Of a stretch of DNA of 44,237 bases, positions 28,064 to 44,237 are shown piece by piece. This stretch comes from Occallatibacter sp. Lineage in GTDB: Bacteria > Acidobacteriota > Terriglobia > Terriglobales > Acidobacteriaceae. Under the pieces are notes generated by a model. That model did no database searches, had not been told where the DNA came from, and saw nothing but the letters and a program-made list of their open reading frames with translations. Position numbers and translations under genes: made by a program. The DNA lies in NCBI GenBank assembly GCA_031296305.1, contig JARLFZ010000023.1, positions 1-44,237 of the forward strand, written 5' to 3'. The stretch's first letter is position 1. Every line of letters begins with the position of its first letter.

Positions 28064-28876
28064 CTACCCCGCGCTCTTCACCCGCACCACCGTAATCTTC
28101 TCAAACCCCTCTTCAAACACCGGCGGTTTCAGCTTCTCCGCCATGCGCCGCATTACCTCTTCGCTCACCGAGCGGTCGCGCTGGCGGTTGCGCTCCAGGC
28201 ACACTTCGAGCGGCACATCGAAGAAGACCGCCTGCACTTCGTAGCCGAAGCTCTTGGCCATCTTGATCCATTGGCGGCGCTCGTGGATGGAGAGATTGGT
28301 CGCGTCCACATAGTTCATGGGCATTTTGGCGATGAGTCGCGCGCGCAAAAGCGAGCGCAGCGTGGAGAAGACCAGCCCCTGGTAGCGCTGCTCCTCAACA
28401 TCGTCAAAGAGGATGTTGCGCAGCAGGTCGCTCGACAACGGCGTGATGCCGCGCCTCCCGAACCACGTGGTTTTGCCGGAGCCGGGCATACCGATTGCCA
28501 GCACCACAAAACCTTTTGGAGTTTGCCCCTGGGCGTTGGGCTTGGGAGACGGAATGGCCGGCATCTCAGGCTGAGTTTCCACCTCAAGCCGGCCAGAACC
28601 CGCCGGCTCATTCCATTCCGGCTTGGCGGGCGATTGGGTCCGCCCGGGCCGGTCTGACCGGTCTGACCGGTCAGTACGCTGCGGCCGCGCCGCCTGGCTT
28701 TGCCGGGGCTCCTGGGCTCGCGGCGCGTCTTGAGCTCGCGGTGCAGCCGGCGCCCGCGCCGGGATCTCGTCGGGATAGAGCGGAACTAGCGGAGCCGGCT
28801 GATTCGATGGAACTTCCGCGCCCGTCTTGCCTGTGGATTCTGAAGTATTAGGACCACGTCTGGAGCGTCTTCTCAT
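28064..28876 (-). CDS. P-loop kinase of the AAA_33 / polynucleotide kinase-like group with a disordered N-terminus
   Basis: 270 residues from the ATG at 28876 (a TTG at 28897 would add seven). Residues 1-120 are Pro/Arg/Ala/Gln-rich and surely disordered, with an [13 protein letters not shown] repeat (68-79 region). The kinase domain starts near 121: Walker [10 protein letters not shown] (129-137), [14 protein letters not shown] (147-159), [15 protein letters not shown] (189-203), [18 protein letters not shown] (218-235) as the lid. This order fits zeta-toxin/T4 PNK-like small-molecule or nucleic-acid kinases. The substrate is unknown. Divergent from gap. Confidence 0.82.
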
Positions 28877-29150
28877 GTTGCTTTCAACCCTTGCCAATCA
28901 CTTTCGCTTTCACACGGAATACCATACCGGGCGCGGGCGCTGCAAATCTTGTGCACTCCGTCACATACAGTTCCATCGCGGGAACCCCATCCTAACGGTA
29001 GGGAATCGTGTGCGACGGGCAGAGCTGCTTGCACTGCTTTGCCGCCGTCCACAATGGTACGATCAAGAGTTTGGTGGAATCCACTCCAGACGCCCTGAAA
29101 ATCAAGGTTTTGAACCCGAAGGCTCACCCAAAGCGAAGGAGAAAACACAC

Positions 29151-30155
<1,005 letters not shown>

Positions 30156-30469
30156 GAAACAGTGGTTAGTGGCTAGTGTCCCGAGTCTGAAGTTCGCATC
30201 ACAATGATCTGTCATCCTGAGCGAAGTTTGCCGTGCTTTTTGCGGCAAACGTAGTCGAAGGATCTGCGGTTGTTCTTCAACGAACTTCAGACTCACCACA
30301 CTAGTGGTTAGTTTTGGAGCGACCTCTTCCGGCAGAAGTCGCTCCATCTGACCCGTTGCGATTGTTTTGCCGCAGCGTTTGCTGACCTGGACGAATTAGC
30401 TACTAACCACTAATCACTAACCACTAATCACTGATCACTGACGACTGCTTCTTCACGAAAGGCAAAACC
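30156..30469. repeat. Composite repeat block between gap and pgk
   Basis: No gene. In order: AGTGGTTAGTGGCTAGTG words; a 14-bp inverted repeat GAGTCTGAAGTTCG (30183-30196) / CGAACTTCAGACTC (30281-30294); inside it the GTCATCCTGA...GAAGGATCTG element (30210-30272) with hairpin GTTTGCCG/CGGCAAAC; a hairpin GGAGCGAC (30316-30323) / GTCGCTCC (30338-30345); and an ACTAACCACTAATCACTAAC word tract (about 30401-30446) that is the inverse of the first words. pgk starts 24 nt later. Confidence 0.9.
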
Positions 30470-31684
30470 ATGGCCAAGCTCTCGATCAAAGACATCGACC
30501 TGACCAATAAGCGGGTGTTCATCCGCGTTGACTTCAACGTTCCCCTCACCGAAGACGGACAAACCATCACCGACGACACGCGCATTGTGGCCACACTGCC
30601 CACCATCGAATACGCGTTGCGGCACCGCGCCAAGGTGATTCTGGCCTCGCACCTGGGGCGGCCCAAGGGCAAACCGAATCCGAAGTATTCGCTGCGGCCA
30701 GTAGCCATCAGGCTGCGCGAGCTGCTCGACAAGAAATTCAGCGACAGCGTCAACGTGGCCTTCTCGCCGGATTGCGTGGGCGAGATTGCCGAAGAGATGG
30801 CGCGCCAGCTCGAATCCGGCCAGGTGCTGCTGCTTGAGAACCTGCGCTTCCACGCCGAAGAGGAAGCCAACGACCCCGCCTTCTCAAAATCGCTCGCCTC
30901 GCTGGCCGAGATCTACGTCAACGATGCGTTCGGCTCGGCGCATCGCGCGCACGCATCGACCGAAGGCATTACGCACTTCCTCAAGCCCGCCGTCGCCGGA
31001 CTGCTGATGGAAAAGGAAATCACCTACCTCGGCAAGGCGCTCGAATCGCCGGAAAAGCCGTTCGTAGCCATCCTCGGCGGATCGAAGATCTCCGGCAAGA
31101 TCGATGTGATCCAGAATCTTCTCGACAAAGTCGACACGCTGGTGATCGTCGGTGGTATGGCCTACACCTTCTACCGCGCGCTGGGCGTCAAGACCGCCAA
31201 GTCGCTGGTCGAAGAGGACAAGATCGAGCTTGCTAAAGCGACTCTGGACAAATCCAAAAGTAAGGGAGTGGAACTCCTCTTGCCCGTGGACAACGTGATC
31301 GCCGACAACTTTGCCAACGACGCCAAGACCCAGGTGTGGGACAGCTCGAAAGACTTTCCAGAGGGTTGGCAGGGACTCGACATCGGCCCCGAGTCGGTGG
31401 CCGCCATCGAGCAGGTGGTTGCGACAGCGAAGACGATCGTGTGGAACGGCCCTGCGGGCGTGTTCGAGTTTCCACGCTTTGCCGTAGGCACCAACGCCAT
31501 TGCGCGCGCTGTGGCGGCCAACCGCGCAGCTACGTCGATCATCGGCGGCGGCGATTCGGTCTCGGCCATCAACCAGGCCGGCGTAGCCGACCAGATCACG
31601 CACATCTCCACCGGCGGCGGAGCCAGCCTCGAATTCCTCGAAGGCAAAAAGCTCCCCGGCGTGGAAGCGTTGACGGACAAGTAG
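30470..31684 (+). CDS. pgk: Phosphoglycerate kinase
   Basis: 404 residues, typical length. Moves phosphate from 1,3-bisphosphoglycerate to ADP. Sequence marks: FIRVDFNVPL near 17-26, HLGRPKGKPNPKYSLRPVA, LENLRFHAEEEANDP, NDAFGSAHRAHAS, ILGGSKISGKI, the nucleotide-binding WNGPAGVFEFPRFAVGT and the closing GGGDSVSA loop. All expected substrate and ADP loops are present. AAAGG lies before the ATG. Directly after gap in the glycolytic group; the C-terminal SxxxG STGGGASLEFLEGKKLPG is intact. Confidence 0.98.
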   Translation: MAKLSIKDIDLTNKRVFIRVDFNVPLTEDGQTITDDTRIVATLPTIEYALRHRAKVILASHLGRPKGKPNPKYSLRPVAIRLRELLDKKFSDSVNVAFSPDCVGEIAEEMARQLESGQVLLLENLRFHAEEEANDPAFSKSLASLAEIYVNDAFGSAHRAHASTEGITHFLKPAVAGLLMEKEITYLGKALESPEKPFVAILGGSKISGKIDVIQNLLDKVDTLVIVGGMAYTFYRALGVKTAKSLVEEDKIELAKATLDKSKSKGVELLLPVDNVIADNFANDAKTQVWDSSKDFPEGWQGLDIGPESVAAIEQVVATAKTIVWNGPAGVFEFPRFAVGTNAIARAVAANRAATSIIGGGDSVSAINQAGVADQITHISTGGGASLEFLEGKKLPGVEALTDK

Positions 31685-31743
31685 CACCTGCGGTGCGGCA
31701 GCCGCGCCTTCGGCGCAAAAACCGCGCGCAGTTCCGACCGAAT

Positions 31744-31772
31744 TCGGATCCGGCGCGTAGCGCCGGATCCGA
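31744..31772 (+). promoter_or_regulatory. 13-bp hairpin directly upstream of a small membrane-protein gene
   Basis: TCGGATCCGGCGC (31744-31756) pairs perfectly with GCGCCGGATCCGA (31760-31772), loop GTA. The right arm overlaps the start of the GAGAGGA ribosome binding site of the next gene (ATG 31785), so folding would affect its access. It may also act as the pgk terminator, although no T-run follows. Confidence 0.55.
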
Positions 31773-31784
31773 GAGGATCGCGGA

Positions 31785-32114
31785 ATGATCCTGGCAATCA
31801 TTCTTGGCGTATCGGCTCTGCTGGCTGCATGGGCTGGATACTGGTGGTCGTCCGTATTATTGGGCGCGAAAGCAAACCGCGCAAGCCGCACGGCGAGCGT
31901 CATTTCTCCTTTTCTCATCGCGGGAGTTTTCGCATGGGCTGCAGGCCCACTGGTCGACGCATACGGAATCGACCTTGAGGGCCTGATGAACTGGCATATA
32001 AGGGGATTCGCCGCGATCTTTTTCGCAGTCGCCATTGTTCTACTGATCCCCACCGTCCTCATCGCTATGCTCGCGGGACAATTGTTTGACAAGCGCGCTC
32101 CGAAGAAAACCTAG
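31785..32114 (+). CDS. Small three-helix membrane protein, unknown
   Basis: 109 residues. Three hydrophobic segments: ILAIILGVSALLAAWAGYWW (2-21), about 39-58 (VISPFLIAGVFAWAAGPLV) and FAAIFFAVAIVLLIPTVLIAML (about 75-96), with a basic C-tail (FDKRAPKKT). A clear GAGAGGA precedes the ATG. No family recognised. Located between pgk and tpiA; the spacing to pgk (100 nt) with the hairpin suggests a separate expression control. Confidence 0.65.
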   Translation: MILAIILGVSALLAAWAGYWWSSVLLGAKANRASRTASVISPFLIAGVFAWAAGPLVDAYGIDLEGLMNWHIRGFAAIFFAVAIVLLIPTVLIAMLAGQLFDKRAPKKT

Positions 32115-32200
32115 TACACAATTTCACCGCCGTCCGCCGGCTCATTTCCATTCCCTTGCCTCCGGCAGAATGACTACACTGAAGACTGAGGCGAAAAACC

Positions 32201-32821
32201 GTGGCCTATTACACGCGAGTCCTGTCGAAAGATGAGGAGTTTCCGTCCTTTGACGAGCTTGAGCAATTCGTTCGCGCCGAGCATCCCCAGTTCAAGCTGA
32301 CTCTCGAGGAAGGCGCGGAGGAAGAGTGGGAAAGCCTGCTCCTCTCCGGCAACGACGACGTTGAAGTTGCGGTGATCGAGCGCAATCCAGTCTCGGAGGG
32401 CTCCATCGGCGAGGATGACATTGCCGAATTCATCGAGGACACCCAGGATGCGAAACCGGAAGCTGGCAAAGCATGGCTCCACGAGTTTCTGGCCTCCGTG
32501 AAAACCATTTATGCCTTCCAGCACCTGCAGGGAAACGAATTCGAAGAGGGCAGCAGCGCGCTCCACGCGCTGCGCACAAAGTTGTGGGAGCGTGGAGATG
32601 CGATTCTCCAAGCCGATGGCGAAGGGTTCACGAACGAGGAGGGCTTCCACATCGTCTGGCAGTTTTCCGACTCCGTCTCGGGCCCATGGAACATGGCCGT
32701 GCAACAGGACGGTGTCTGGCGTCAATTCACGATGGACCTGGGCGATCCGGATCATCGCGCTGCGTTCCTCGAAGGCTCTGTGCCCGACGATTTAACCTCG
32801 ACGATCGGATCGGGCTCGTAG
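32201..32821 (+). CDS. Conserved-looking soluble acidic protein, unknown
   Basis: 206 residues starting with GTG at 32201, with GAGG nine bases upstream. Cytoplasmic, acidic; no membrane segment. An AYYTRVLSKDEEFPSFDELE start and a IVWQFSDSVSGPWNMAVQQ centre stand out, but I know no family that fits. It lies between the three-helix membrane protein and tpiA in the same direction and might be cotranscribed with the former. Function unknown. Confidence 0.7.
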   Translation: MAYYTRVLSKDEEFPSFDELEQFVRAEHPQFKLTLEEGAEEEWESLLLSGNDDVEVAVIERNPVSEGSIGEDDIAEFIEDTQDAKPEAGKAWLHEFLASVKTIYAFQHLQGNEFEEGSSALHALRTKLWERGDAILQADGEGFTNEEGFHIVWQFSDSVSGPWNMAVQQDGVWRQFTMDLGDPDHRAAFLEGSVPDDLTSTIGSGS

Positions 32822-32930
32822 GCCCAGAACGGCCGCGCCTTCCCAGCGTGGTCTGCTCATTAGGCATTGTGCCCGGCGTCACCCGGGCGCTGAAGCCGAT
32901 CCCCTAAAATTGAACTGAGGAACTCAGAAC

Positions 32931-33683
32931 ATGTCTCGTAAAGCACTGATTGCTGCCAATTGGAAGATGTACAAGACGCCGGCCGAAGCCAAGGCGTTTG
33001 TCGATGCTTTTTTGCCGCTGGTTGCCGGGCACACGCGCGACGAGATCGCGCTGTTCCCTTCACCGGTGCTGCTGCCAACCGTCGTTCCCGGCTGCAAGGG
33101 ATCGAATGTAGCCGTGGGCGCGCAGAACATCCACTTTGCCGAGGAGGGCGCATACACCGGCGAGACCTCCGTCGGGCAGTTAATCGCCGTAGGCGGTACG
33201 CACACGCTCATCGGTCACTCGGAGCGGCGCCAGTATTTTGCCGAGACGGACGAGATTGTGAACAAGAAGTTGCACACAGCCCTTAAACATGGAATCGTCC
33301 CAATCGTCTGCGTGGGCGAGGTGCTGGCGGAGCGCGAAGCCGGCAAGACCGCAAGCGTGCTCGAGACCCAGGTCAAGGGTGCATTTGCGGGCATCACGCC
33401 CGAGGCCGCCGCGCCCATCGTGATTGCGTACGAGCCCGTATGGGCCATCGGCACCGGCAAGACTGCGACGCCGGAGATTGCCGTCGACGCGCACAAAATC
33501 ATTCGCGCTGAAGTGGCGAAGTTGCTGGGAGCCAATGTTGCTGCGGCCATCCGCATTCTCTACGGCGGCAGCGTCAAGCCCGACAACGCGACCGCGCTCA
33601 TCGGCCAGGAAGAGATCGACGGAGCGCTGGTAGGCGGCGCCAGCCTCAAGCCGGATTCGTTCGCGGCGATTGTGAAGTATTAA
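32931..33683 (+). CDS. tpiA: Triosephosphate isomerase
   Basis: 250 residues, standard length. Interconverts DHAP and glyceraldehyde 3-phosphate. Active site Asn10-Lys12 in AANWKMYK, His96 in GHSERR, Glu168 in AYEPVWAIGTG, and ILYGGSVKPDN for the phosphate loop. GAGGA about ten bases before the ATG. Third glycolytic gene of the group. In many bacteria secG follows tpiA; here the complex I operon starts on the other strand instead. Confidence 0.98.
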   Translation: MSRKALIAANWKMYKTPAEAKAFVDAFLPLVAGHTRDEIALFPSPVLLPTVVPGCKGSNVAVGAQNIHFAEEGAYTGETSVGQLIAVGGTHTLIGHSERRQYFAETDEIVNKKLHTALKHGIVPIVCVGEVLAEREAGKTASVLETQVKGAFAGITPEAAAPIVIAYEPVWAIGTGKTATPEIAVDAHKIIRAEVAKLLGANVAAAIRILYGGSVKPDNATALIGQEEIDGALVGGASLKPDSFAAIVKY

Positions 33684-33798: not shown

Positions 33799-35379
33799 CT
33801 AAACGTAGAAACTCGCAATCCAATTCTGCAGCAGCGCCGGGAAGCAGCCGAGCGCGATAACCGCCGCGGCGATGAGCACAAGCACGGCCATCGTGACGGG
33901 ATGCGCCTTGATCGGCGACTCGTCGCTCGCGGGCATTACGTATGCGCGCTTGAGCACCTGCAAATAGTAATAGAGCGAGACGGCGCTGAAGGCGATGGCC
34001 AATATCACCAGCGCCAGAGCATCGGTAGGCAGCGAGGATAGCGGCCCGGGCCCATGAAGCGGTCCCGACCCGAGCGTGATCACCGCTGCAAACAGATTGA
34101 ATTTGGCCCAGAAGCCGACCAGCGGCGGAATTCCAGCAAGCGAGAGGAAGAGCACCAGCAGCACGGCAGCGAGCAGCGGATTGCGCTTCTGTAATCCAAG
34201 GAAGCTGTCGAGCTTGTCGGAACCGGTCGCGCGCTCCACGACGCCGACCACGCCGAACGCGCCGACGGTCGTCAACCCGTACGTGACGATGTAGTAGAGA
34301 ATCGCCTGCGCGCTCAAGTTTGACCATCCGAAGAACGCGAGCCCAAGCAGGATGTAGCCGGCATGCGCGATAGCGGAGTACGCCAGCAGGCGGCGAACGC
34401 TCGTCTGCGCCAGCGCGGCCAGGTTGCCGAAGACCATGGACGCAGCAGAGAGCACCATCAGGATCAGCGGCCACGCGGTGACCATGCCCGGCGTGTTGTG
34501 CGGCATCGGTGCGCCGGGCGAAGAAACCGTGACGGTAAGGCGACCGCCCAAGTGCAGCATCGAGGGCCACCAGAGAATTGCATGACTGATGGAAATGAGC
34601 AGCGCGAAACTGGCGACCTTCGAAACCGATGCGATGAAGGCGGCGGCTGGAGCCGGCGCGCCCTCATAAGTATCCGGTGCCCAGAAATGGAATGGAACGG
34701 CCGCAATCTTGAATCCGAGGCCCACGGCAATCATGACCAGCGCGATCAGGAGCAGCGAAGTCGCGCCGTTGGCCGACGCCATATAGGTCCAGAGCACAAC
34801 GCGCGGCAGGCTCGTTGAGCCTGACAGCCCGTAGAGATAGCTGAAGCCAAACAGCAGAAACGCAGCGGACATGCCGCCAAAGAGATAGTACTTGAGGGCG
34901 GCCTCGGCGCTCTTGCCGGATTGCTTGGCGAAGGCCGTGAGGATATAGAGGCCGAGCGAAAGCAGCTCGAGGCCTACGAAGATGACGAGTAGATCCTGTG
35001 CCGCAGAAATGAGCAGTCCGCCGGCAGTGGCCATCAGCACTACGGAAACGTATTCGCCGGGGTTGCGCGTGAATCCGGTATCGATAAAAAGCAGAAGCGT
35101 GAGCGCGGTGAGAACCAGAATGGCCACCTGCGCGACAGCTGCGGAGCCGCCCGCGGCCAGCACAACGTAGCTTCCGTTGCTAAGGCTGCCCCATCCGGCG
35201 GCGTAAACGGCCCAGATCGCCGCGGCGCAACCGGCGACACCAAGGACGGCCGCCGCCGCGACGCGGATTTGGGCCGCGGCCTTACGCAGGAAGCCGAGAT
35301 CGACGACGATCACGAGCAGCGCGGCAATTTCGAGAGCCGTTTCAGGCAGCGTGGCGCGGAAGAGGTCGACGTAGTTCAT
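33799..35379 (-). CDS. nuoN: NADH-quinone oxidoreductase subunit N
   Basis: 526 residues, about 13-14 membrane helices. One of the antiporter-like proton-pumping subunits of respiratory complex I in the inner membrane. Key lysines are in place: KIAAVPFHFWAPDTYEGAP (TM7), SKVASFALLI (TM8) and FWAKFNLF (TM12, where N carries Lys instead of Glu). VGLELLSLGLYIL holds the TM5 glutamate. The start overlaps the stop of the preceding nuoM by four bases (ATGA). It is the last gene of the operon; a hairpin repeat follows. Confidence 0.95.
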   Translation of the reverse strand: MNYVDLFRATLPETALEIAALLVIVVDLGFLRKAAAQIRVAAAAVLGVAGCAAAIWAVYAAGWGSLSNGSYVVLAAGGSAAVAQVAILVLTALTLLLFIDTGFTRNPGEYVSVVLMATAGGLLISAAQDLLVIFVGLELLSLGLYILTAFAKQSGKSAEAALKYYLFGGMSAAFLLFGFSYLYGLSGSTSLPRVVLWTYMASANGATSLLLIALVMIAVGLGFKIAAVPFHFWAPDTYEGAPAPAAAFIASVSKVASFALLISISHAILWWPSMLHLGGRLTVTVSSPGAPMPHNTPGMVTAWPLILMVLSAASMVFGNLAALAQTSVRRLLAYSAIAHAGYILLGLAFFGWSNLSAQAILYYIVTYGLTTVGAFGVVGVVERATGSDKLDSFLGLQKRNPLLAAVLLVLFLSLAGIPPLVGFWAKFNLFAAVITLGSGPLHGPGPLSSLPTDALALVILAIAFSAVSLYYYLQVLKRAYVMPASDESPIKAHPVTMAVLVLIAAAVIALGCFPALLQNWIASFYV

Positions 35380-36881
35380 TGCGTGCCTCCCGCGAGCAGC
35401 GTTTTCACGGCCGGTTCAATCTGGTCGAGCAGAATGCGCGGATAAAGCCCGACAGCAAGTGTGCAGAAGCCGAGCAACGCGACCCCCGCGTACTCAGGCC
35501 AGGTGATGGGCGCGAATTTGTGCGTCTGCTCCGCTTCAAGCTCATGCGGAGTGGGCAGCGTATCGCTGAAGAATGCCTTTTGCAGCGCGCGCCAGATGTA
35601 AGCAACGCCGACGATGATGCCGATGCCGGAGATGATCGTCCACCAAGGGTTGGCCTGCCATGCTCCGACCATCACCTGCAACTCGGCGACGAAGCCGGAG
35701 AAGCCGGGCAGGCCCATCGACGCAACGCCGGCAAAGACGAAAGCCCACGCGGCAAAGGGCAGTCGTCGCGAAAGGTGCATCGGCTCCAATTCGGCAAACT
35801 GGCGCGTGTGCGTACGGTCGTAGACCACGCGGCCGACAATGGCGAACAAGAGGCCCGCGATGATACCGTGCGAGAACATTTGCAGCACCGCGCCGTCGAC
35901 GCCGATCTGGTTGAGCGTCATGAGGCCGAGCAGCACAAAACCCATGTGGCTGACGCTGGAGTAGCCGATGACGAATTTGAAATCGGTTTGCGCCAGAGCG
36001 ACCAGCGCGCCGTAGACGATACCGATGACCGCGAGCCATGCGAAGACGTCGCGCCAAGAACCGATGCCGACGAACGAGAATCCCCACGGATCGAGGCCGT
36101 GCGGAAAAAGGCCGATGCCGACGCGCAGGCAACCATATGCCCCGAGTTTCATGACTACACCGGCGAGCAGCATTGACGCCGCTGTAGGCGCGGCGACGTG
36201 GCCGGTGGGCGCCCAGGTGTGGAAGGGCCACATGCCGGCGAGAATCCCGAAGCCAACAAACACCAGAGGAAAACACCACATCTGGAAGCTGATGGGCAAG
36301 CCCGCGCTTGCAAGCGCGGCGAGTGTCGTTGAGTGTGAGCCGGCGGTGACGTAGGCTGCAAGCAGGCCGATGAGCACCATAGCCGAGCCGACGAAAGAGT
36401 AAATCGCAAGCTTCATGGCGCCGTACTCGCGGCGCGTCGAGCCCCAGATGGCGATGAGGAAATATTTGGGAACGATGGCGATTTCGTAAAAGACGAAGAG
36501 CAGGAAGAGGTCGCCGCTCAAAAACACGCCGTAAACGCCGCCGATAAGCGCGAGATAAAACGCGAAAAACTGATTGGTGCGCAGATCGATGTTCCAACTG
36601 AAGAGGACGCCCGAAACCGAGGCGATGCCGGTGAGCAGAACCAGCACGCGGCTGATACCGTCGGCAGCAAGCAAGAAGTGGATGCCCATGGAAGGCACCC
36701 AGAGCGCGTCGACAAACACCTGGCGTCCCTGCCCAAAGCCCGCGGCGTAACCCGCGACGGCGAGGCCCAGACCCACCACGGACACGACGAGCGCAAACCA
36801 GCGCGCAAGGACAGGTTTGTCCTTGGGCAGTAGTGCCACAATCAACGCCCCGGCGAACGAAATAGTTATGGTCCAAGCCAT
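35376..36881 (-). CDS. nuoM: NADH-quinone oxidoreductase subunit M, second copy
   Basis: 501 residues, second of two adjacent NuoM-type antiporter subunits. Conserved parts: FYEIAIVPKYFLIA with Glu133 (TM5), VVMKLGAYGCLR with Lys245 (TM8), and FVAELQVMVG with Glu400 (TM12). At TM7, where the first copy has VKVPLMPFHTWLP, this one reads ILAGMWPFHTWAP, so the central lysine (E. coli NuoM Lys234 position) is Leu214 by my by-eye alignment. The glutamate of the following YAEAP is also changed (HVAAP). It starts three bases after the first copy's stop. It probably forms an extra module in complex I, perhaps with altered pumping. Confidence 0.92.
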   Translation of the reverse strand: MAWTITISFAGALIVALLPKDKPVLARWFALVVSVVGLGLAVAGYAAGFGQGRQVFVDALWVPSMGIHFLLAADGISRVLVLLTGIASVSGVLFSWNIDLRTNQFFAFYLALIGGVYGVFLSGDLFLLFVFYEIAIVPKYFLIAIWGSTRREYGAMKLAIYSFVGSAMVLIGLLAAYVTAGSHSTTLAALASAGLPISFQMWCFPLVFVGFGILAGMWPFHTWAPTGHVAAPTAASMLLAGVVMKLGAYGCLRVGIGLFPHGLDPWGFSFVGIGSWRDVFAWLAVIGIVYGALVALAQTDFKFVIGYSSVSHMGFVLLGLMTLNQIGVDGAVLQMFSHGIIAGLLFAIVGRVVYDRTHTRQFAELEPMHLSRRLPFAAWAFVFAGVASMGLPGFSGFVAELQVMVGAWQANPWWTIISGIGIIVGVAYIWRALQKAFFSDTLPTPHELEAEQTHKFAPITWPEYAGVALLGFCTLAVGLYPRILLDQIEPAVKTLLAGGTQ

Positions 36882-36884
36882 TCT

Positions 36885-38429
36885 TTAAAATCTCCAGTGC
36901 GCCAGCAGGTTCTGGACCGTGGGATTGATAGTGTTCACGATGAGCTGGGGCACAAGGCCGAGCAGAAACAACAATCCAATGACAGGCGCGAGAGCCATCC
37001 TCTCGCCGTGATGCAGATCGGGAAACGCGGCCCAGTGCTCCGGAACGGGGCCGCTGAATACTTTTTGAATGACGGTGAGAATCACCACGGCGGTCACGAG
37101 CAATCCCAGCACACTCACTGTTGCACTCATCCAAGACAAGGAAAAAACGCCGCGGAAGATGAGAAACTCGCCGACAAATCCATTCAGGCCCGGCAGACCG
37201 AGCGAGGAGAAGAGCGCGATGCCCATGAGCCCCGCGAAGACCGGCGCAGGCTTGCGCAGACCGCCGAAATCGTTGATGCCGCGCAGACCGCCGGAGCGAA
37301 ACTGCATCATCGAAACGAACCAGAAGAGCGCTGCGGCAGTAAGTCCGTGGTTGAACATTTGCAGGATGACGCCGTTCAACGCAGCAGCCTGGCTGGCCTG
37401 CTGCGCAGCACCGGCTGCGGGAACCGCCAACGCGAAGATGCCCAGCAGGCAGTAGCCCAAGTGATTGATCGAGGAATACGCGAGGACGCGCTTGAGATCG
37501 GTTTGCGCGGCCGCGGCCCACGCGCCCATCACGACGGTGGCGGCGGCAAGAACGAGCAGCGGCGTGCGCATCGCGGCAATCTGCGGGCCGAAGATCGGAA
37601 TGGCGATGCGCAGCAGGCCGTAGACGCCCATCTTCGACATGGCGCCCGTAAGCAACATAGTGACGGGCGAAGGCGCCTCGGCGTATGCGGCGGGCAGCCA
37701 GGTGTGGAAGGGCATCAGCGGCACTTTGACCGCGAAGCCCGCGAGCACGCCGATGGCGAGCCACGGCATCACGGGCCCGAGATGCGCGGTGACCATTTGC
37801 GCGAGCTGTCCAGATGCAGCCATTTGCGCGAGCTGACCGAAGTCCATGGTGCCGGGCGCGTTTTTACTGGTTGTCGCGAAGAAGATAGCGAGGAACGAGA
37901 GCAACAGCGCCACCGAGCCGGCCATGGTGTAGACGAAAAACTGCGTGGCCGCGGGACCGCGCTTCGGCCCTCCCCACAACTTGATCAGGAAGAATGCGGG
38001 GATGAGGCTGAGCTCCCAAAACAAAAACCAGTGGAAGAAATTGAGCGCGGTGAAGGAGCCGAAGAGGCCTGCTTCGAGCGTCAGCACCAGTCCAAAGAAG
38101 AGGCCGGGCATGTGATGCACGCGATGCTGCGCGGCATCGACCGCCATGAGTGTGACGATGGCCGAAAGCACGAGCATGAGGCCGCCAAGGCCGTCGACAC
38201 CAAGGTGATACTCGATGCCGAGCGATGGCGCCCACGCCGCGCGCTCCACGAGGCCGATGCTGCCGTCGGCGGGCAGGCGGGTCCAGATGAAGAGCGCAAT
38301 CAGTACACAGGCCAGCGTGGTGAAGAGCGCCACGATGCGGGCATGACGGCCAGAGAAGAGCGCGAACGCCGCACCAATCAGCGGCAGCACAGTGAGCAGC
38401 GTCAGGATTGGGAAGCCGAGTACGTTCAT
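36885..38429 (-). CDS. nuoM: NADH-quinone oxidoreductase subunit M, first copy
   Basis: 514 residues, antiporter-like proton-pumping subunit. All the canonical charged residues are seen: FWELSLIPAFFLIKLW with Glu139 (TM5), VKVPLMPFHTWLP with Lys235 (TM7), SKMGVYGLLR with Lys266 (TM8), and FVGEFLIFRG (TM12). A short tandem duplication, GQLAQM-AAS-GQLAQM (198-212), sits in the loop before TM7. The start overlaps the nuoL stop by four bases (ATGA). Followed at once by the second nuoM, which differs clearly in sequence, so this is an old duplication. Confidence 0.95.
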   Translation of the reverse strand: MNVLGFPILTLLTVLPLIGAAFALFSGRHARIVALFTTLACVLIALFIWTRLPADGSIGLVERAAWAPSLGIEYHLGVDGLGGLMLVLSAIVTLMAVDAAQHRVHHMPGLFFGLVLTLEAGLFGSFTALNFFHWFLFWELSLIPAFFLIKLWGGPKRGPAATQFFVYTMAGSVALLLSFLAIFFATTSKNAPGTMDFGQLAQMAASGQLAQMVTAHLGPVMPWLAIGVLAGFAVKVPLMPFHTWLPAAYAEAPSPVTMLLTGAMSKMGVYGLLRIAIPIFGPQIAAMRTPLLVLAAATVVMGAWAAAAQTDLKRVLAYSSINHLGYCLLGIFALAVPAAGAAQQASQAAALNGVILQMFNHGLTAAALFWFVSMMQFRSGGLRGINDFGGLRKPAPVFAGLMGIALFSSLGLPGLNGFVGEFLIFRGVFSLSWMSATVSVLGLLVTAVVILTVIQKVFSGPVPEHWAAFPDLHHGERMALAPVIGLLFLLGLVPQLIVNTINPTVQNLLAHWRF

Positions 38430-40498
38430 GGCCGGCTGCTCCAGAGAAGAATTGCAACGAGCGCGACCACAGCCGCGGCCAGAATGCGCAAGTAATTCTG
38501 CACGCGGCCGCCTTCGACGCGCGACAGCAGGCCGCCGCCAGAGGAAAGCCCCTCACAGGTTTTGTCGAAGCCGCCGTCGACCCAGTCGATGTCGAGCAGG
38601 CGGTTGAGCTGTGCCCAGAGGCCGAAGAGCCACGTGACGGCGGCGACGATGCCTCCCCAGATGCGGCGGTCGAGCCAGTCGGCCACGCGCGCCCACCACG
38701 CGTAGAAGGCGATCACGGTCGCGCCGTAAAGCTCGTCAACGTAGAGGCGATCGCGCAGCGGCTTCCAGAGCCAGGGAGCAGATTTTTCGAGCGCATCTGG
38801 AGCTTCGGGCTTGGGCGTTTTGTTTCCGTAGAGCCACCAGCCGAGCCCGAGGCCGGCAAAGACGACGAACGACGACCCGAGCATGAGCAAGCCGAGGCCG
38901 GGCTCGGCGAATCCGCGCCAACTGAAGGAGGCGGTTCGATTCTCGAGGAACGCGTGGAACCATGGCCACGCGGGAGTTCCGATGACGCCGAGCACAATTG
39001 CGAAGAACGCGAGAATCGCAAGCGGCAGCGTCATCACCTTCGGGCTCTCGTGCGCGTGCTTCTCGCCGCGGTTGTAGCCGAAGAATACGTAGCAGACCTG
39101 ACGCGTCATGTAGAACGCGGTGAGTAATGCGCCGAAGACGAGCAGATAAAACGGGCCTTTGGAGATATCCCAATGCTGCGCGGCTTCCAGGATCCCGTCC
39201 TTCGACCAGAATCCGGAGAAGAAGATTGGGAATCCACACAGCGCCAGCATACCGATGGCATAGGTGATGAAAGTGAGCGGCATGTCGGAGCGAAGGCCGC
39301 CCATGCGGCGAATGTCCTGCTCGTCGTGGCAGCCGTGGATGACCGAGCCCGCGCCAAGGAAGAGCAGCGCTTTGAAGAAGGCGTGCGTGATGAGGTGGAA
39401 CATTCCGACGGCGATGCCGCCCAGGCCGAGTCCGGCCATCATGTAGCCGAGCTGCGAAATGGTCGAATAAGCGAGGATGCGCTTGATGTCGTTTTGCGCC
39501 ACGGCGATGAGCGCGGCAAAGACCGCGGTGGACGCGCCCACCCAAGTGACGACGGTGAGCGCCGCGGTGGTTCCATGGGGCGCGGCGCCGATTGACATGA
39601 GGGGATAAACCCGCGCGACCAGAAAGACGCCGGCCGCAACCATGGTAGCCGCATGAATGAGCGCGGAGACGGGCGTCGGGCCTTCCATCGCGTCAGGCAG
39701 CCAGACATGTAATGGAAGCTGGCCGCTCTTGCCCACGGCTCCGGCGAAGATCAGTAGACCGATGGCGCCGGCGGCGCTGAGGCCGAGCCCCGCATGCTGC
39801 GAGAGCAAGTTGACGAGCGCGAGACCTTCAAGCGAGCCCACGCCGTGGTTGTAGAAGAGCAGCGTGCCGGTCTGCGAGTACAACCACACGATGCCGAGCA
39901 AAAAGAAAATATCGCCGACGCGCGTGGTGACGAAGGCTTTTTTTGCGGCGGCCGCGGCGGAGGGTTTTTGATACCAGAAGCCAATGAGCAGATACGAGGT
40001 GAGGCCGACGATCTCCCAGCACATGAAGAGCAGAAGAAGGCTGTTGGAAATCACGACGCCCAGCATGGCTCCGGCAAAGAGTGAGAGGAAGCAAAAGAAG
40101 CGCGTGAAGTTTTCATCGTGGGCCATGTAGCCCACCGAGTAGATGAAGATGAGCAGGCCGACGAAACTGACCATCACCAGCATGATGGCTGCGAGCGGAT
40201 CCAGGACCCAGCCGAGATCAACGGTGGAGGAGCCGAAGCGAAACCAGGTGAAGTTGACGAACTCACGGACGGCGGAATCGTGCGTCCATCCGGTCAGTAC
40301 GTGACAGAGCGCGACCAGCGAGAGCAGCAGCGAAATCGAAAGCGAGCCGATCGCCAGCCCCGCGGCAAGCCTGCGCCGCGGCTGTTTGAGGAGCGCGATC
40401 AACCCCGATGCAACCATGGGCGCAACGGGAATGAGCCACAGAATTCCCGTGATAGCTGAGGCGGCGAATTGTGGAGTGAATGCTGCGGATTCCTGCAT
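38426..40498 (-). CDS. nuoL: NADH-quinone oxidoreductase subunit L with a lengthened C-terminal lateral-helix region
   Basis: 690 residues from the ATG at 40498; an in-frame TTG just before (40501) is less likely. Distal antiporter subunit of complex I. CWEIVGLTSYLLIGFW (TM5 Glu), GKSGQLPLHVWLPDAMEGPTP (TM7 Lys) and FWSKDGILEAA (TM12 Lys) are intact. After RLYVDELYG (585-593) about 75 residues follow before the RVQNY (666-670) and last helix. In ordinary NuoL this span is, as I recall, some 25 residues shorter. Extra segment: roughly 600-640, with amphipathic WWARVADWLDRRIWGGIV and LFGLWAQLNRLLDIDW. This fits a lateral helix reaching over an additional NuoM. E. coli NuoL is 613 residues. Confidence 0.95.
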   Translation of the reverse strand: MQESAAFTPQFAASAITGILWLIPVAPMVASGLIALLKQPRRRLAAGLAIGSLSISLLLSLVALCHVLTGWTHDSAVREFVNFTWFRFGSSTVDLGWVLDPLAAIMLVMVSFVGLLIFIYSVGYMAHDENFTRFFCFLSLFAGAMLGVVISNSLLLLFMCWEIVGLTSYLLIGFWYQKPSAAAAAKKAFVTTRVGDIFFLLGIVWLYSQTGTLLFYNHGVGSLEGLALVNLLSQHAGLGLSAAGAIGLLIFAGAVGKSGQLPLHVWLPDAMEGPTPVSALIHAATMVAAGVFLVARVYPLMSIGAAPHGTTAALTVVTWVGASTAVFAALIAVAQNDIKRILAYSTISQLGYMMAGLGLGGIAVGMFHLITHAFFKALLFLGAGSVIHGCHDEQDIRRMGGLRSDMPLTFITYAIGMLALCGFPIFFSGFWSKDGILEAAQHWDISKGPFYLLVFGALLTAFYMTRQVCYVFFGYNRGEKHAHESPKVMTLPLAILAFFAIVLGVIGTPAWPWFHAFLENRTASFSWRGFAEPGLGLLMLGSSFVVFAGLGLGWWLYGNKTPKPEAPDALEKSAPWLWKPLRDRLYVDELYGATVIAFYAWWARVADWLDRRIWGGIVAAVTWLFGLWAQLNRLLDIDWVDGGFDKTCEGLSSGGGLLSRVEGGRVQNYLRILAAAVVALVAILLWSSRP

Positions 40499-40505
40499 CA
40501 AGCTT

Positions 40506-40820
40506 TCACCCCTTCATCCTGTTCATCTTGTCGAGATCGGTGGTGTTGGTGTGGCGATGAATGGAAATGACGAGGCCGAGACCGACGGCTGCTTCCGCCG
40601 CGGCCACGGCGATAGAGAAAATGGCGAACATCATGCCCGTGAGGAATTCAGGATGCGGGCCGTATCGCCAGAAAGCGATGAGGTTGAGATTGGCCGCGTT
40701 CAACATCAATTCAATCCCAATCAGCACGAGAATCGCGTTGCGGCGCACCAATGCACCGGCAAGGCCAATGGCAAAGAGCAGAGCGGCAACCAGCAGATAA
40801 CCGGCGAGCGGCGTGGTCAC
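40506..40820 (-). CDS. nuoK: NADH-quinone oxidoreductase subunit K
   Basis: 104 residues, three membrane helices, starting with GTG at 40820 that overlaps the nuoJ stop (GTGA). IGIELMLNAANLNLIAF carries the proton-path glutamate of TM2, and AVAAAEAAVGLGLVI the TM3 glutamate. Part of the E-channel of complex I. The tail after VISIHRH is a few residues longer than usual (NTTDLDKMNRMKG). Confidence 0.95.
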   Translation of the reverse strand: MTTPLAGYLLVAALLFAIGLAGALVRRNAILVLIGIELMLNAANLNLIAFWRYGPHPEFLTGMMFAIFSIAVAAAEAAVGLGLVISIHRHTNTTDLDKMNRMKG

Positions 40821-41320
40821 GGTTTCGGCCTCTCTTTCTCGTGCATGGCCACGATGACCGCACCGATGGTGGCCGCGGTGAGTAGCAGAGCGACAATCTC
40901 CAGCGGCAGCACGTAGCGGCCCACCAGCGCGTTGCCGATGTCGTGCACGGTGACGGCGGGAACGGCGTTATGCTGCGGCAAGGCCCGCACGCTTTCGAGG
41001 ACGGCCCAGGCCAGAACCGCAAAGACACCGGCTGCAATCACAAGTCCCACAAACCAGGTGCTGCTGAAGACGCCTTCTTTGGGCAAATCGGCGCCCCGCG
41101 TCAGCAGAATGGCGAACACAATCAGGATGGCAACGGCGCCGATGTAGACGAGAATCTGCGCGAAGCCGGCGAACTGCGCATCAAGCTGCAAATAAAGCAA
41201 CGCCAATCCGGCGAAGGCTACCGTGGTGGCGAGAGCGCAATGCACCAGGTGCTTGAGCATCACAGCAGCCAGACCGCCGCAGATGGTTATGGCCGCAAGC
41301 AGATAGAAGAGAGCGTTCAT
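40817..41320 (-). CDS. nuoJ: NADH-quinone oxidoreductase subunit J
   Basis: 167 residues, five membrane helices. AQILVYIGAVAILIVFAILL is the conserved TM3 with the pi-bulge used in coupling. The C-terminal part ends in a charged HEKERPKP. The start ATG lies nine bases after the nuoH stop. Forms the central membrane path with H and K. Confidence 0.94.
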   Translation of the reverse strand: MNALFYLLAAITICGGLAAVMLKHLVHCALATTVAFAGLALLYLQLDAQFAGFAQILVYIGAVAILIVFAILLTRGADLPKEGVFSSTWFVGLVIAAGVFAVLAWAVLESVRALPQHNAVPAVTVHDIGNALVGRYVLPLEIVALLLTAATIGAVIVAMHEKERPKP

Positions 41321-41329
41321 GGATGGCTC

Positions 41330-42520
41330 CTATTCAGCATAGCGGTATCTCCTGGGGCCGAAGTGCTCGTTGCGCATGCTTAAGCGGCCCATAAGCACGT
41401 AAGCCGCGGCCAGAATCACCGTGCACACCACCCAGCGCATCCAGCCGTCGCCCATGAAGCGCCAGAGCGCGGTCACAAAGAGATTGAGCAGCGTGAAAGG
41501 CAGCACAAACTTCCATGCAAAGTTCATCAGCTGGTCCTGGCGCAGGCGGGGCAACGTGCCGCGCATCCAGATGAAGACAAATATGGAGAGCATCACCTTG
41601 GAGAAAAACCAGATCCACGAAGGAATGAAAGTGAGGAAGGAAAATGGCGCAGACCATCCGCCGAGGAAGAGCGTGGTGCCGAGGCCTGAGATGGCGAACA
41701 TGGCCAGATATTCGCCGAGAAAGAAGAGCGCGAATTTGAAGCCCGAATACTCGGTGTGATATCCGGCGACAAGTTCCGATTCGCCTTCGGGCAGATCGAA
41801 GGGCGAGCGATTGGTCTCGGCCGTGGCGGCAATAGCGTACATCACAAACCCGGCCAAACCCCATGGCGTAAAGATGTACCAGTGAGGAAAGATGCCCGTG
41901 TAGCTGTTCTGCGCATCCACGATCTTCGGCAGCGAAAGCGAGCCGGCGATCATGACCACGGAAACGCTCGAAAGCAGCAGCACAACTTCGTAGCTGATCA
42001 TCTGCGCCACCGCGCGCATGGCGCCCAGCAATGAATATTTATTGCGGCTCGACCAGCCGGCCATGAAGACCGAAAGCTCGGTGGACGCGCTCATGGAAAA
42101 GAAGAAGAGCAGACCGGCGTTCAGGTCGACCAGCACCATGTTGCGGCCCATGGGCAGTACGGCAAATTCCATAAAGACCGCGACCACCAGCGAAAGCGGC
42201 GCAAGGAAATGCACCACCGCATTGGCGCTGAAGGGAACGATGTCTTCCTTGGTGAGCGACTTGATGCCGTCGGCGACGGGCTGGAAGAAGCCGAAGGGGC
42301 CAACGCGGTTGGGGCCGAGGCGATTCTGGATACGGCCCAGGCCTTTGCGCTCAAACACCGTGGTCAGCGCGAACAGGCCGGGAAACAAGCAGACGATGGT
42401 GATGACGCCAAGCACGATGCCGGCGGCGGGGCGCAGCGCCGCGGGCAAAAAATCGACAAGCCAGTTGCGAAGAAGGATGAAGATCTGGTCGAGGTTAGTG
42501 AAGAGGCGCGATGTCGCCAT
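41330..42520 (-). CDS. nuoH: NADH-quinone oxidoreductase subunit H
   Basis: 396 residues, longer than E. coli (325), with extra N-terminal (first 40) and C-terminal residues. It couples quinone reduction to the membrane pumps. ERKGLGRIQNRLGPNRVGP is the hallmark loop; AETNRSPFDLPEGESELVAG is the quinone-chamber loop with conserved acidic residues; FVFIWMRGTLPRLRQDQL is the last conserved loop. About eight membrane helices. Start ATG three bases after the nuoI stop. Confidence 0.97.
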   Translation of the reverse strand: MATSRLFTNLDQIFILLRNWLVDFLPAALRPAAGIVLGVITIVCLFPGLFALTTVFERKGLGRIQNRLGPNRVGPFGFFQPVADGIKSLTKEDIVPFSANAVVHFLAPLSLVVAVFMEFAVLPMGRNMVLVDLNAGLLFFFSMSASTELSVFMAGWSSRNKYSLLGAMRAVAQMISYEVVLLLSSVSVVMIAGSLSLPKIVDAQNSYTGIFPHWYIFTPWGLAGFVMYAIAATAETNRSPFDLPEGESELVAGYHTEYSGFKFALFFLGEYLAMFAISGLGTTLFLGGWSAPFSFLTFIPSWIWFFSKVMLSIFVFIWMRGTLPRLRQDQLMNFAWKFVLPFTLLNLFVTALWRFMGDGWMRWVVCTVILAAAYVLMGRLSMRNEHFGPRRYRYAE

Positions 42521-42523
42521 GGT

Positions 42524-43138
42524 CTAGCTTCCTCCTCCGGTGGGTGGTGCAGGAGGCGCGGAGGCAGCGGTTTTGGCTGCGGCAGCCTCGGCCGCGGCTT
42601 TGGCCTTGGCTTCCACCTTGGCTTTTTCCTCGCCCAGTCGCGCATCGACCTGCGACGCTTCCGTGGGATGGATCGAGTGATAGTATTCGTTCGATCTAGC
42701 CAACTGCTTGCGATCGTAGAGCAGGCCGCCGAAGCGATCGTCAGTGGCCAACTCGAACTCGTTGTCCATCTTGATGGCCTCGAACGGGCAAACTTCAACG
42801 CAAATCTGGCAGCTCATGCAAACAGAAACATCAATGTCGAAGCGCGTGGGATAAAACTGCTGCTTGCCCACATAATCCGGCTTCTTGTCCTTGCTTTTGT
42901 CGATGTAGATGCACTTGGGCGGGCACTCCTTCTCGCAGATCTGGCAGGCCACGCAACGCAGCCCGGCCTCCCAGTCCGCTCCGTCGTACACGAGAAAAGG
43001 AAATACGCGTGCGGCCTCGATGGTGGGAATCCGCTCCTCCGGATACTCCACCGTCGTCATCCGCTCTTTGGAGACGTAGCTACCGAAGAAATTCTTCGCC
43101 GTCTCCGCCATTCCCTTCAGGATGCCTTCACCAAGCAA
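42524..43138 (-). CDS. nuoI: NADH-quinone oxidoreductase subunit I (two [4Fe-4S] ferredoxin domains)
   Basis: 204 residues from a TTG at 43138 with GGAG eight bases upstream; an ATG at 43111 is the alternative. Carries clusters N6a and N6b toward quinone. Cluster ligands: Cys62-x2-Cys65-x2-Cys68-x3-Cys72 and Cys107-x2-Cys110-x2-Cys113-x3-Cys117. A tail of about 40 residues (EEKAKVEAKAKAAAEAAAAK..., Ala/Lys-rich helix then Pro/Gly) is beyond the usual end and may be unstructured or contact other subunits. A 100-nt word-repeat gap separates it from nuoD. Confidence 0.95.
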   Translation of the reverse strand: MLGEGILKGMAETAKNFFGSYVSKERMTTVEYPEERIPTIEAARVFPFLVYDGADWEAGLRCVACQICEKECPPKCIYIDKSKDKKPDYVGKQQFYPTRFDIDVSVCMSCQICVEVCPFEAIKMDNEFELATDDRFGGLLYDRKQLARSNEYYHSIHPTEASQVDARLGEEKAKVEAKAKAAAEAAAAKTAASAPPAPPTGGGS

Positions 43139-43238: not shown

Positions 43239-44237
43239 TCATCGATCCACTTCACCCAGCACAATATCCACGCTGCCAAAGATCAGCACCACATCGGCCA
43301 CGTTGCTGCCCAGGCACATATCTTCGAGAACCGTCAGGTTGATCAGGCTGGGCGGGCGCACGCGATAGCGATATGGATTCGGACCGCCGTCGCTGATGAG
43401 ATAAAAACCCAGCTCGCCCTTGGGCGCCTCAATGCGGCCGTAGGCCTCGCCGGGCTTGGGCCGAAAGCCGCGGATCTTGGCTTTCGCATCCATGATGGGC
43501 CCGCCGGGAATTTCGTTGAGCGCCTGCTCGACAATCTTGATCGACTCGCGCATCTCCAGAATGCGCACCATGTAGCGGTCGTAGACGTCGCCATGATCGC
43601 CCAGCGGCACGCGAAATTTGAAGCGATCGTAAATGCCGTAATGGTCGACTTTGCGAATGTCGTAGTCCACTCCTGACGCGCGCAGCATCGGCCCCGTGAC
43701 GCCGGCGTTCACAGCCAACTCCGGCTTTAAAATGCCCACGCCCTGGCAGCGCGCCATCAAAATCTCATTCGAAGACAGCAGCGCTTCGAACTCGTCGACA
43801 AACTGCGGCAAACCGGCGATCACCTTGCGCGTCGCGTCAAGCCACAACGCAGAAACATCCACGCGGCAGCCGCCGAAGCGCATGTAGTTGCACATCATGC
43901 GCGAGCCGGTGAGCGACTCAAAGAGGTCGAGGATTTTTTCGCGCTCTTTGAAGGCGTACATCAGCGGCGTGCCGCTGGCGCCCATCTCCTGAATCAAGAA
44001 TCCAATCGACGAAGCGTGATTCTGAATACGCGTAAGTTCCCCAAGAATGACGCGGATGTACTGGGCGCGCTCCGGTACTTCCTGGGCGGCTAGCTTTTCG
44101 ACGGCCAGCGCGTAGGCCCAGTTGTTGGTGAGCGAGCAGATGTAATCAAGGCGGTCGGTGTAGGGCATCGACGCCAGGTAGCTGGCCTGCTCAGCGATCT
44201 TCTCGTGGTTGCGATGCAGGTAGCCGAAGACCGGCTT
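43239..44237 (-). CDS. nuoD: NADH-quinone oxidoreductase subunit D, 5'-truncated by the window edge
   Basis: 333 residues seen; the frame is open to the right edge. At the edge it reads [20 protein letters not shown], the GYxHRGxEK motif of NuoD (an ATG at 44168 is internal). Further: [20 protein letters not shown], GxxxRASG in [15 protein letters not shown], and [20 protein letters not shown] near the end, DIVLGEVDR at the C-terminus. It forms the quinone-binding pocket of the peripheral arm with NuoB. The missing N-terminus should hold the HFGPQHP motif. Next gene is nuoI; E, F and G are not between them. Confidence 0.96.

Follow-up and report, generated by a model that had tools for sequence, protein, structure and literature searches.

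A probable ferredoxin-driven complex I with two NuoM subunits and an apparently relocated lysine in Occallatibacter sp.

Two nuoM genes in one operon

The window, i.e. the whole 44,237-nucleotide stretch from Occallatibacter sp. analysed here, is the entire contig C88 of its genome (G000; 4.1 Mb, 171 contigs, 84% complete), and its minus strand carries from 44237 to 33799 genes for respiratory complex I in the order nuoD (cut), nuoI, nuoH, nuoJ, nuoK, nuoL, nuoM1, nuoM2 and nuoN. Gene content, gene order, residues, neighbourhood and the grouping of NuoM2 in a quick tree were observed directly. From these we consider it probable that the operon encodes a 12-gene complex I (nuoABCD-IH-JK-L-M1-M2-N) of the type with a doubled NuoM (2M), having no NuoE, NuoF and NuoG (EFG-less) and four antiporter-like subunits, that it is driven by ferredoxin and fed by 2-oxoacid:ferredoxin oxidoreductases of the Kor and Vor types, and that its second NuoM uses a lysine on transmembrane helix (TM) 5 in place of the one on TM7. 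The features concerned are the following.

38426..40498, minus strand: nuoL, 690 amino acids (aa), distal antiporter-like subunit with the lateral helix; NF005141, 640 bits against a cut-off of 556
38603..38680, minus strand: inserted stretch of NuoL, approximately residues 607-632, 26 codons with approximate borders, placed by spacing and C-terminal alignment
36885..38429, minus strand: nuoM1, 514 aa; TIGR01972, 426 bits; the ordinary NuoM residues E139 (TM5), K235 (TM7), K266 (TM8) and E421 (TM12)
35376..36881, minus strand: nuoM2, 501 aa; Leu214 at the place of the TM7 Lys, Lys139 on TM5; E133, K245, H312 and E400 kept
36465..36467, minus strand: codon of NuoM2 Lys139 on TM5, six residues past Glu133
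36240..36242, minus strand: codon of NuoM2 Leu214, at the place of the TM7 Lys (K234 of E. coli NuoM)
33799..35379, minus strand: nuoN, 526 aa; TIGR01770, 334.2 bits against a cut-off of 332.6

An earlier note on this DNA had described two adjacent, divergent nuoM genes. The genes are indeed adjacent, and they diverge in sequence (29% identity between NuoM1 and NuoM2; 31% and 33%, respectively, to E. coli NuoM) while sharing one orientation. The reading frames of NuoL, NuoM1 and NuoM2 are intact and in tandem, with an overlap of 4 nt between L and M1 and a gap of 3 nt between M1 and M2. Both M proteins exceed the NDH_I_M cut-off of 263.8 bits (426 and 425 bits), which places NuoM2 within the NuoM family and fold, and two nuoM genes between nuoL and nuoN are the arrangement by which 2M membership is recognized. 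The same genome has a second complex I on contig C83, of the ordinary 14-gene type with nuoE, nuoF, nuoG and one nuoM (L090). This C83 nuoM (L090, 14624-16222) shows an unusual stretch, DYWRLMAF, and a gap of three residues beside the TM8 Lys.

The start of nuoD, followed by nuoC, nuoB and nuoA, appears to lie on the minus strand of contig C158 (L104, 1-2072), since the NuoD profile covers positions 4-27 on C158 and resumes at 34 on C88. Among 247 sampled genomes of Acidobacteriota, an M2 orthologue was detected in seven, which all belong to the family of the window (26 genomes). The operon is also present in the genomes of two cultured relatives, Terracidiphilus gabretensis (L052) and Occallatibacter savannae (L059). 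In both Acidobacteriota and Verrucomicrobiota, M1 and M2 are neighbours flanked by L and N.

The lysine exchange in NuoM2

In E. coli, function is lost when the TM7 Lys of NuoL, NuoM or NuoN is mutated (PMC3046159), and in each antiporter-like subunit this Lys pairs with a Glu on TM5 (PMC10212512). NuoM2 lacks the pair that characterizes the antiporter-like NuoM. The earlier note had pointed to an altered lysine. Leu replaces Lys on TM7 and a Lys stands on TM5 both in the window and in every orthologue sequence compared (84/84), and across these the TM5 Lys is invariant, as are the TM5 Glu, the TM8 Lys, the His and the TM12 Glu. NuoM1 E139, K235, K266 and E421 are kept in 71-73 of 73 relatives, and the key residues of NuoL (E162, D196, K257, H282, K376, K433 and D434) are present in the window and kept in 56-57 of 57. 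On sequence grounds, we take Lys139 on TM5 to substitute for the lost TM7 Lys in NuoM2.

The sets for these counts comprised 84 M2, 73 M1, 68 N and 57 L sequences, after exclusion of M and N proteins below 440 aa, L proteins below 560 aa and sequences under the set identities; G007 and G171 occur twice among the 84, and the residue-count set overlaps the 120-protein set used for the comparison with complexes that have a single M. The 2M lineages of Nitrospira and Chloroflexota lie outside the comparison. Among 15 high-scoring M2 matches in the phylum to which the Verrucomicrobiia bin L086 belongs, the residues of four were inspected. No mention of a TM5/TM7 lysine exchange was found in the literature searched; it may be in print in the 2018 paper by Chadwick, Hemp, Fischer and Orphan (ISME J 12:2668).

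The main competing explanation is that NuoM2 is present in the complex without pumping, as a spacer or a link in the chain that has no TM7 Lys, so that the ratio would stay at 4 H+/2e-. The E. coli mutants and the Lys/Glu pairing just cited would agree with this, as would the nearest single-M relatives, whose lone NuoM has neither the TM7 Lys nor the TM5 Lys; a Lys-less module is therefore tolerated. A spacer, on the other hand, would not need the five residues that are invariant in NuoM2, and we consider this explanation rather unlikely. What the TM7 lysine does and how many protons each antiporter-like subunit moves are questions that the field has yet to settle, and for these, modules without the TM7 lysine, with and without a TM5 lysine, in otherwise similar complexes offer a natural test.

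Absence of the NADH module and the probable electron donor

No match to nuoE, nuoF or nuoG was found in any of 80 relative loci, which come mostly from Acidobacteriaceae/Acidobacteria, apart from a few in Verrucomicrobiota and in single bins under the labels Proteobacteria, Rhodoferax and bacterium. Most loci with enough flank read B-C-D-I-H-J-K-L-M1-M2-N; in a few, B, C, D or N is missing or frames are split. EFG was likewise not seen at the nuoA end on C158 of the window's own genome, in the family genomes G036, G195, G130 and G147, or in L241, L242 and L244, three genomes of the phylum of L086. In the own genome one NuoF exceeded its cut-off, and it lies within the C83 complex I. The gene content is thus that of an EFG-less enzyme of 11/12 subunits and not of the canonical 14-subunit enzyme, in which NuoEFG is encoded with the complex.

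The complex may still be an NADH dehydrogenase that borrows NuoEFG from the C83 complex or HoxEFU from the [NiFe] hydrogenase. Both modules are encoded in the own genome, HoxEFU and EFG-less NDH-1 are discussed in PMC9414918, and the complex of Acidobacterium capsulatum with duplicated nuoM is named NADH dehydrogenase in PMC11636273. Such borrowing is unlikely in our judgement. EFG was not found beside any 2M operon examined, whereas ferredoxin oxidoreductases recur there, and electron transfer from NADH to menaquinone, which we take to be the quinone of this family, yields too little energy for 5 H+ at the usual proton motive force. With assumed midpoint potentials, translocation of 5 H+ per 2e- to menaquinone would stall at ~98 mV with NADH and at ~138-170 mV with ferredoxin, so a fourth module suits ferredoxin better than NADH. 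In the hydrogenase locus itself (L245, G000 C52, 4649-9645), HoxE-, NuoF- and HoxU-like genes come first, and genes for the small and large subunits of a Vhu-like [NiFe] hydrogenase come next.

The neighbourhood of nuoA points to ferredoxin. The region upstream of nuoA on C158 holds, in the same orientation, genes for a peptidase M28, a CoA transferase, a ferredoxin-like protein that has two cluster motifs, Vor alpha, a fused Vor beta/gamma, ilvE and glutamate dehydrogenase, and two further genes precede nuoA. The run from the CoA transferase to nuoA recurs in G248, G249, G258 and G262. KorAB is divergent from nuoA across a gap of ~0.2 kb in G036, G195 and G130, and lies 5.5 kb upstream of nuoA in G147 and ~4-5 kb away in G280 and G282. 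Altogether, the own genome and 10 of the 32 2M genomes that could be tested have genes for 2-oxoacid:ferredoxin oxidoreductases in the vicinity of nuoA. This count was made manually with a 20-kb limit picked after inspection of the data; genomes whose contig extends for less than 20 kb upstream were excluded, as was G000, whose operon is on two contigs, and G252 and G253, which share coordinates with G007 and G171, were counted once. No KorA-type match was present within 300 kb on the same contig of an ordinary NuoL in the 26 family genomes, links across contigs being possible. In the single-M relative G028, KorA, KorB and nuoA stand directly in line.

Gene content follows the same trend. KorA exceeded its cut-off in all seven family genomes with M2 vs 7 of 19 without it (one-sided Fisher test, 0.005, kinship ignored). 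Among the 2M genomes reached through loci (n=42, including G007 and G171 again), 36 had KorA over its cut-off, five a partial or Vor-type match and one none. SucA, the E1 component of 2-oxoglutarate dehydrogenase, gave no match in the three genomes of the window's genus (3/3, two of them ~100% complete) and exceeded its cut-off in all 23 other genomes of the family. Rnf was considered as another outlet for ferredoxin and rejected, RnfC being over the cut-off in 0 of 30 genomes. Because of the Kor/Vor linkage, the distribution of KorA and SucA and the absence of RnfC, a ferredoxin-fed complex is the best reading, and on gene neighbourhood and gene content ferredoxin is the likely electron donor. 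The name NADH-quinone oxidoreductase is questionable for this complex, and the repeated Kor/Vor linkage provides a testable candidate partner for an EFG-less enzyme, whose direct donor stays a question after a search for a common donor protein failed (PMC11238625). The missing NuoEFG, the ferredoxin-oxidoreductase neighbourhood and the grouping of NuoM2 with single-M complexes that have no TM7 Lys go beyond what the earlier note had reported.

The electrons could also run in reverse, with the proton gradient driving them from quinol to ferredoxin, as proposed for the 2M complex I of autotrophic Nitrospira (PMC6606698, PMC12342949). Here the neighbours (ilvE, gdh, Vor and the CoA transferase, a route for branched-chain amino acids) look catabolic, and in the window's genus KorA was found and SucA was not, so that reduced ferredoxin would be made in the oxidative direction. 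Reverse operation seems distinctly improbable on these grounds.

Two further gene sets of the own genome involve hydrogenase-like proteins. L246 (G000 C145, 1378-5902) holds an NADH-linked [FeFe] hydrogenase of three genes, group A6-like. In L091 (G000 C26, 4953-9450) and L105 (596-1786), the gene of a NuoL/M-like protein of 1019 aa precedes NuoB- and NuoH-like genes, a set that may encode a Hyf-like complex or a group 4 hydrogenase; L047 has a comparable set close to the 2M operon.

The NuoL lateral helix

The earlier note had counted about 25 extra residues in NuoL after YVDELY, and the spacing together with an alignment of the C-terminal region located an insertion in the lateral-helix region, at about residues 607-632. 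In the window 78 residues separate YVDELY from GRVQNY, against 53 in the own C83 NuoL (54 with a slightly different anchor) and 46 in E. coli, an excess of 24 to 25 over ordinary family NuoL and of ~32 over E. coli. Among 63 rows of 2M NuoL examined, in which two genomes were entered twice, 46 were parsed by the pattern, with a spacing of 78 in 37, 77 in 8 and 60 in 1; most of the 17 unparsed tails look alike, and one is a broken end. For the other NuoL, 31 complex I matches in the 26 family genomes gave 23 fetched proteins, of which 3 were unparsed and 20 parsed (a single nuoM was not confirmed one by one), with a spacing of 53-54 in 18 and 88 in 2. The spacing was 52-53 in all five of the nearest single-M relatives and 78 in all three Verrucomicrobiota 2M complexes measured. 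A difference of 78 vs 53-54 agrees with the insertion of ~26 residues reported for the NuoL lateral helix of 2M complexes (PMC9040806).

The suggestion that the extra M goes with the longer NuoL stood in part: it holds for the 52-53 of the single-M relatives against the 78 of 2M, and it fails for two single-M operons with 88. The rule that a long lateral helix proves a second M was dropped on account of these two operons. Since insertions in NuoL occur also in complexes with canonical gene content (PMC9040806), length alone is not diagnostic. Our comparison supports the narrower statement that in this lineage the NuoL insertion accompanies the second M without proving it. Loci L212 and L213 (G121 C16, G073 C42) encode an EFG-less complex I with one NuoM and yet 88 residues in the lateral-helix region. 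An AlphaFold model of NuoL had a predicted local distance difference test (pLDDT) score of 38.5, the alignment being too shallow.

That NuoM1 and NuoM2 are alternative isoforms, one per assembled complex, is very improbable, since Acidobacteriota and Verrucomicrobiota alike have them side by side, flanked by L and N (with L243, M2-N alone, as the exception), and NuoL of 2M complexes is 25 residues longer than in the nearest single-M complexes. L243 (G454) has nuoM2-nuoN with no nuoL or nuoM1 within 9 kb upstream, a split 2M operon.

Proposed working of the complex

In the ferredoxin-driven complex, KorAB (taken as the 2-oxoglutarate enzyme) and the Vor-type enzyme for branched-chain 2-oxoacids would reduce ferredoxin, which would pass electrons straight to the iron-sulphur clusters of NuoI and NuoB, and the quinone would be reduced. 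L-M1-M2-N together with the E-channel would then move protons, probably as many as five for every two electrons, with the longer lateral helix of NuoL spanning the extra subunit. A changed ratio of protons to electrons is plausible. We infer the donor, the assembly, the stoichiometry, the order of events and the role of Lys139.

Several observations weigh against this proposal. The NuoM2 model is weak at TM7 (residues 223-232 with confidence below 50), and by simple geometry position +6, that of Lys139, is off the helix face of Glu133. The 88-residue NuoL region occurs in two operons of this family that have a single M and no EFG (L154/L155). The own genome has an NADH module, HoxEFU, that could dock, as well as other ferredoxin routes, namely the [FeFe] hydrogenase and the Hyf/Mbh-like complex. 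KorA is also found in 7 of the 19 family genomes lacking M2, and 22 of the 32 2M genomes with enough flank have no KorAB or Vor within 20 kb upstream. Four of the single-M loci without EFG and TM7 Lys have a complete 5' side, and in one of them KorAB lies beside nuoA. SucA is retained by four 2M family genomes and by 8 of the 42 locus-derived 2M genomes. The M tree is a quick tree whose careful search is unfinished and in which long branches were flagged, and of the other subunit trees that of NuoD alone sets the TM7-Lys-less single-M group beside 2M, those of NuoH and NuoN not doing so.

Evolutionary order

In the quick tree NuoM2 groups with four single-M proteins that have no TM7 Lys (support 100), and NuoM1 stands apart (100). 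NuoM2 may thus descend from the single NuoM of ferredoxin-type complexes in which the TM7 lysine was already lost, NuoM1 being the added one. An origin of the lysine swap with the duplication is not favoured, because the loss on TM7 is common to the single-M relatives. In residues 298-307 NuoM2 has F/Y for the Arg of the QTDxKR motif of E. coli NuoM and NuoM1, a second change shared with its single-M sisters.

We tentatively propose, as a scenario somewhat short of probable, a stepwise rewiring to a four-module ferredoxin:menaquinone pump fed by 2-oxoacid:ferredoxin oxidoreductases, with no 2-oxoglutarate dehydrogenase E1 found. The lone NuoM of a ferredoxin-linked, EFG-less ancestor would have lost its TM7 lysine first. 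An ordinary M1 would then have been inserted between this old M and NuoL, the lateral helix extended by 25 residues and a TM5 lysine gained in the old M, so that one of the four modules would use a Glu-Lys arrangement within a single helix.

Remaining genes of the operon

40506..40820, minus strand: nuoK; E-channel Glu36 and Glu72 kept
40817..41320, minus strand: nuoJ; best family NF005168, 101 bits, under its cut-off of 154
41330..42520, minus strand: nuoH; checked Glu kept, 7/7
42524..43138, minus strand: nuoI; families under their cut-offs; all nine Cys of E. coli NuoI kept, including the ligands of two 4Fe-4S clusters
43239..44237, minus strand: nuoD; 5' end lost at the contig end

The Cys ligands of the NuoI and NuoB clusters (four NuoB Cys were taken as ligands) and the E-channel acids of NuoA, NuoH and NuoK are kept, at the positions in these five subunits that we take to be the relevant ones. 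The glycolysis genes gap, pgk and tpiA (28827-33683, plus strand) are convergent with the end of the operon.

Comparison with known systems

Complex I with a second NuoM is described in PMC9040806, PMC6606698 and PMC12342949, the first two also reporting a lengthened NuoL, and these papers trace the class to Chadwick et al. A duplicated nuoM is reported from A. capsulatum (PMC11636273) and a 2M version from Chloroflexi (PMC7117926), and four antiporter-like subunits are counted as known (PMC7419157). CI_1 of Nitrospira moscoviensis is a complex without NuoE, NuoF and NuoH (PMC6606698). As the earlier note had stated, the 2M class is therefore known (PMC9040806, PMC6606698, PMC11636273); the variant with a moved lysine, a ferredoxin neighbourhood and the evolutionary order given above was not met in the literature searched.

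For the 11-subunit enzymes of Desulfitobacterium and Dehalococcoides ferredoxins were proposed as carriers, and NuoEFG is absent as here, but they have one NuoM in a nuoABCDHIJKLMN operon (PMC11238625). In Campylobacter, 2-oxoacid oxidoreductases and flavodoxin/ferredoxin feed a menaquinone-reducing complex I, as we propose for Occallatibacter; that Nuo differs in that NuoXY replaces NuoEF, and the excerpt of PMC6682613 does not describe it as 2M. Complex_I_3 of Ca. Manganitrophaceae and the rhizobial green complex I have more than three antiporter-like subunits, as here, and the former also has a 26-residue insertion in the lateral helix; they differ in that two MrpD-like subunits replace NuoL (PMC9040806). 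The window encodes a true NuoL with no such pair in its place and does not belong to green complex I. Two loci of the phylum of L086, L239 and L240 (G406, G564), have two NuoL-like genes of 500-606 aa ahead of nuoM, like the rhizobial green complex I.

The Acidobacteriota loci L234-L237 and L238 of the phylum of L086 share with NuoM2 the loss of the TM7 Lys, and the NuoM of L234-L237 groups with M2. EFG is absent from the four of these five loci with a complete 5' side, as in the window, but they have one NuoM, no TM5 Lys and a NuoL spacing of 52-53. With the published 2M complex I, as described in the citing papers, the operon of the window shares the two nuoM genes and the NuoL insertion of ~26 residues; it differs from those descriptions by the Kor/Vor neighbours and by an M2 in which a TM5 Lys takes the place of the TM7 Lys.

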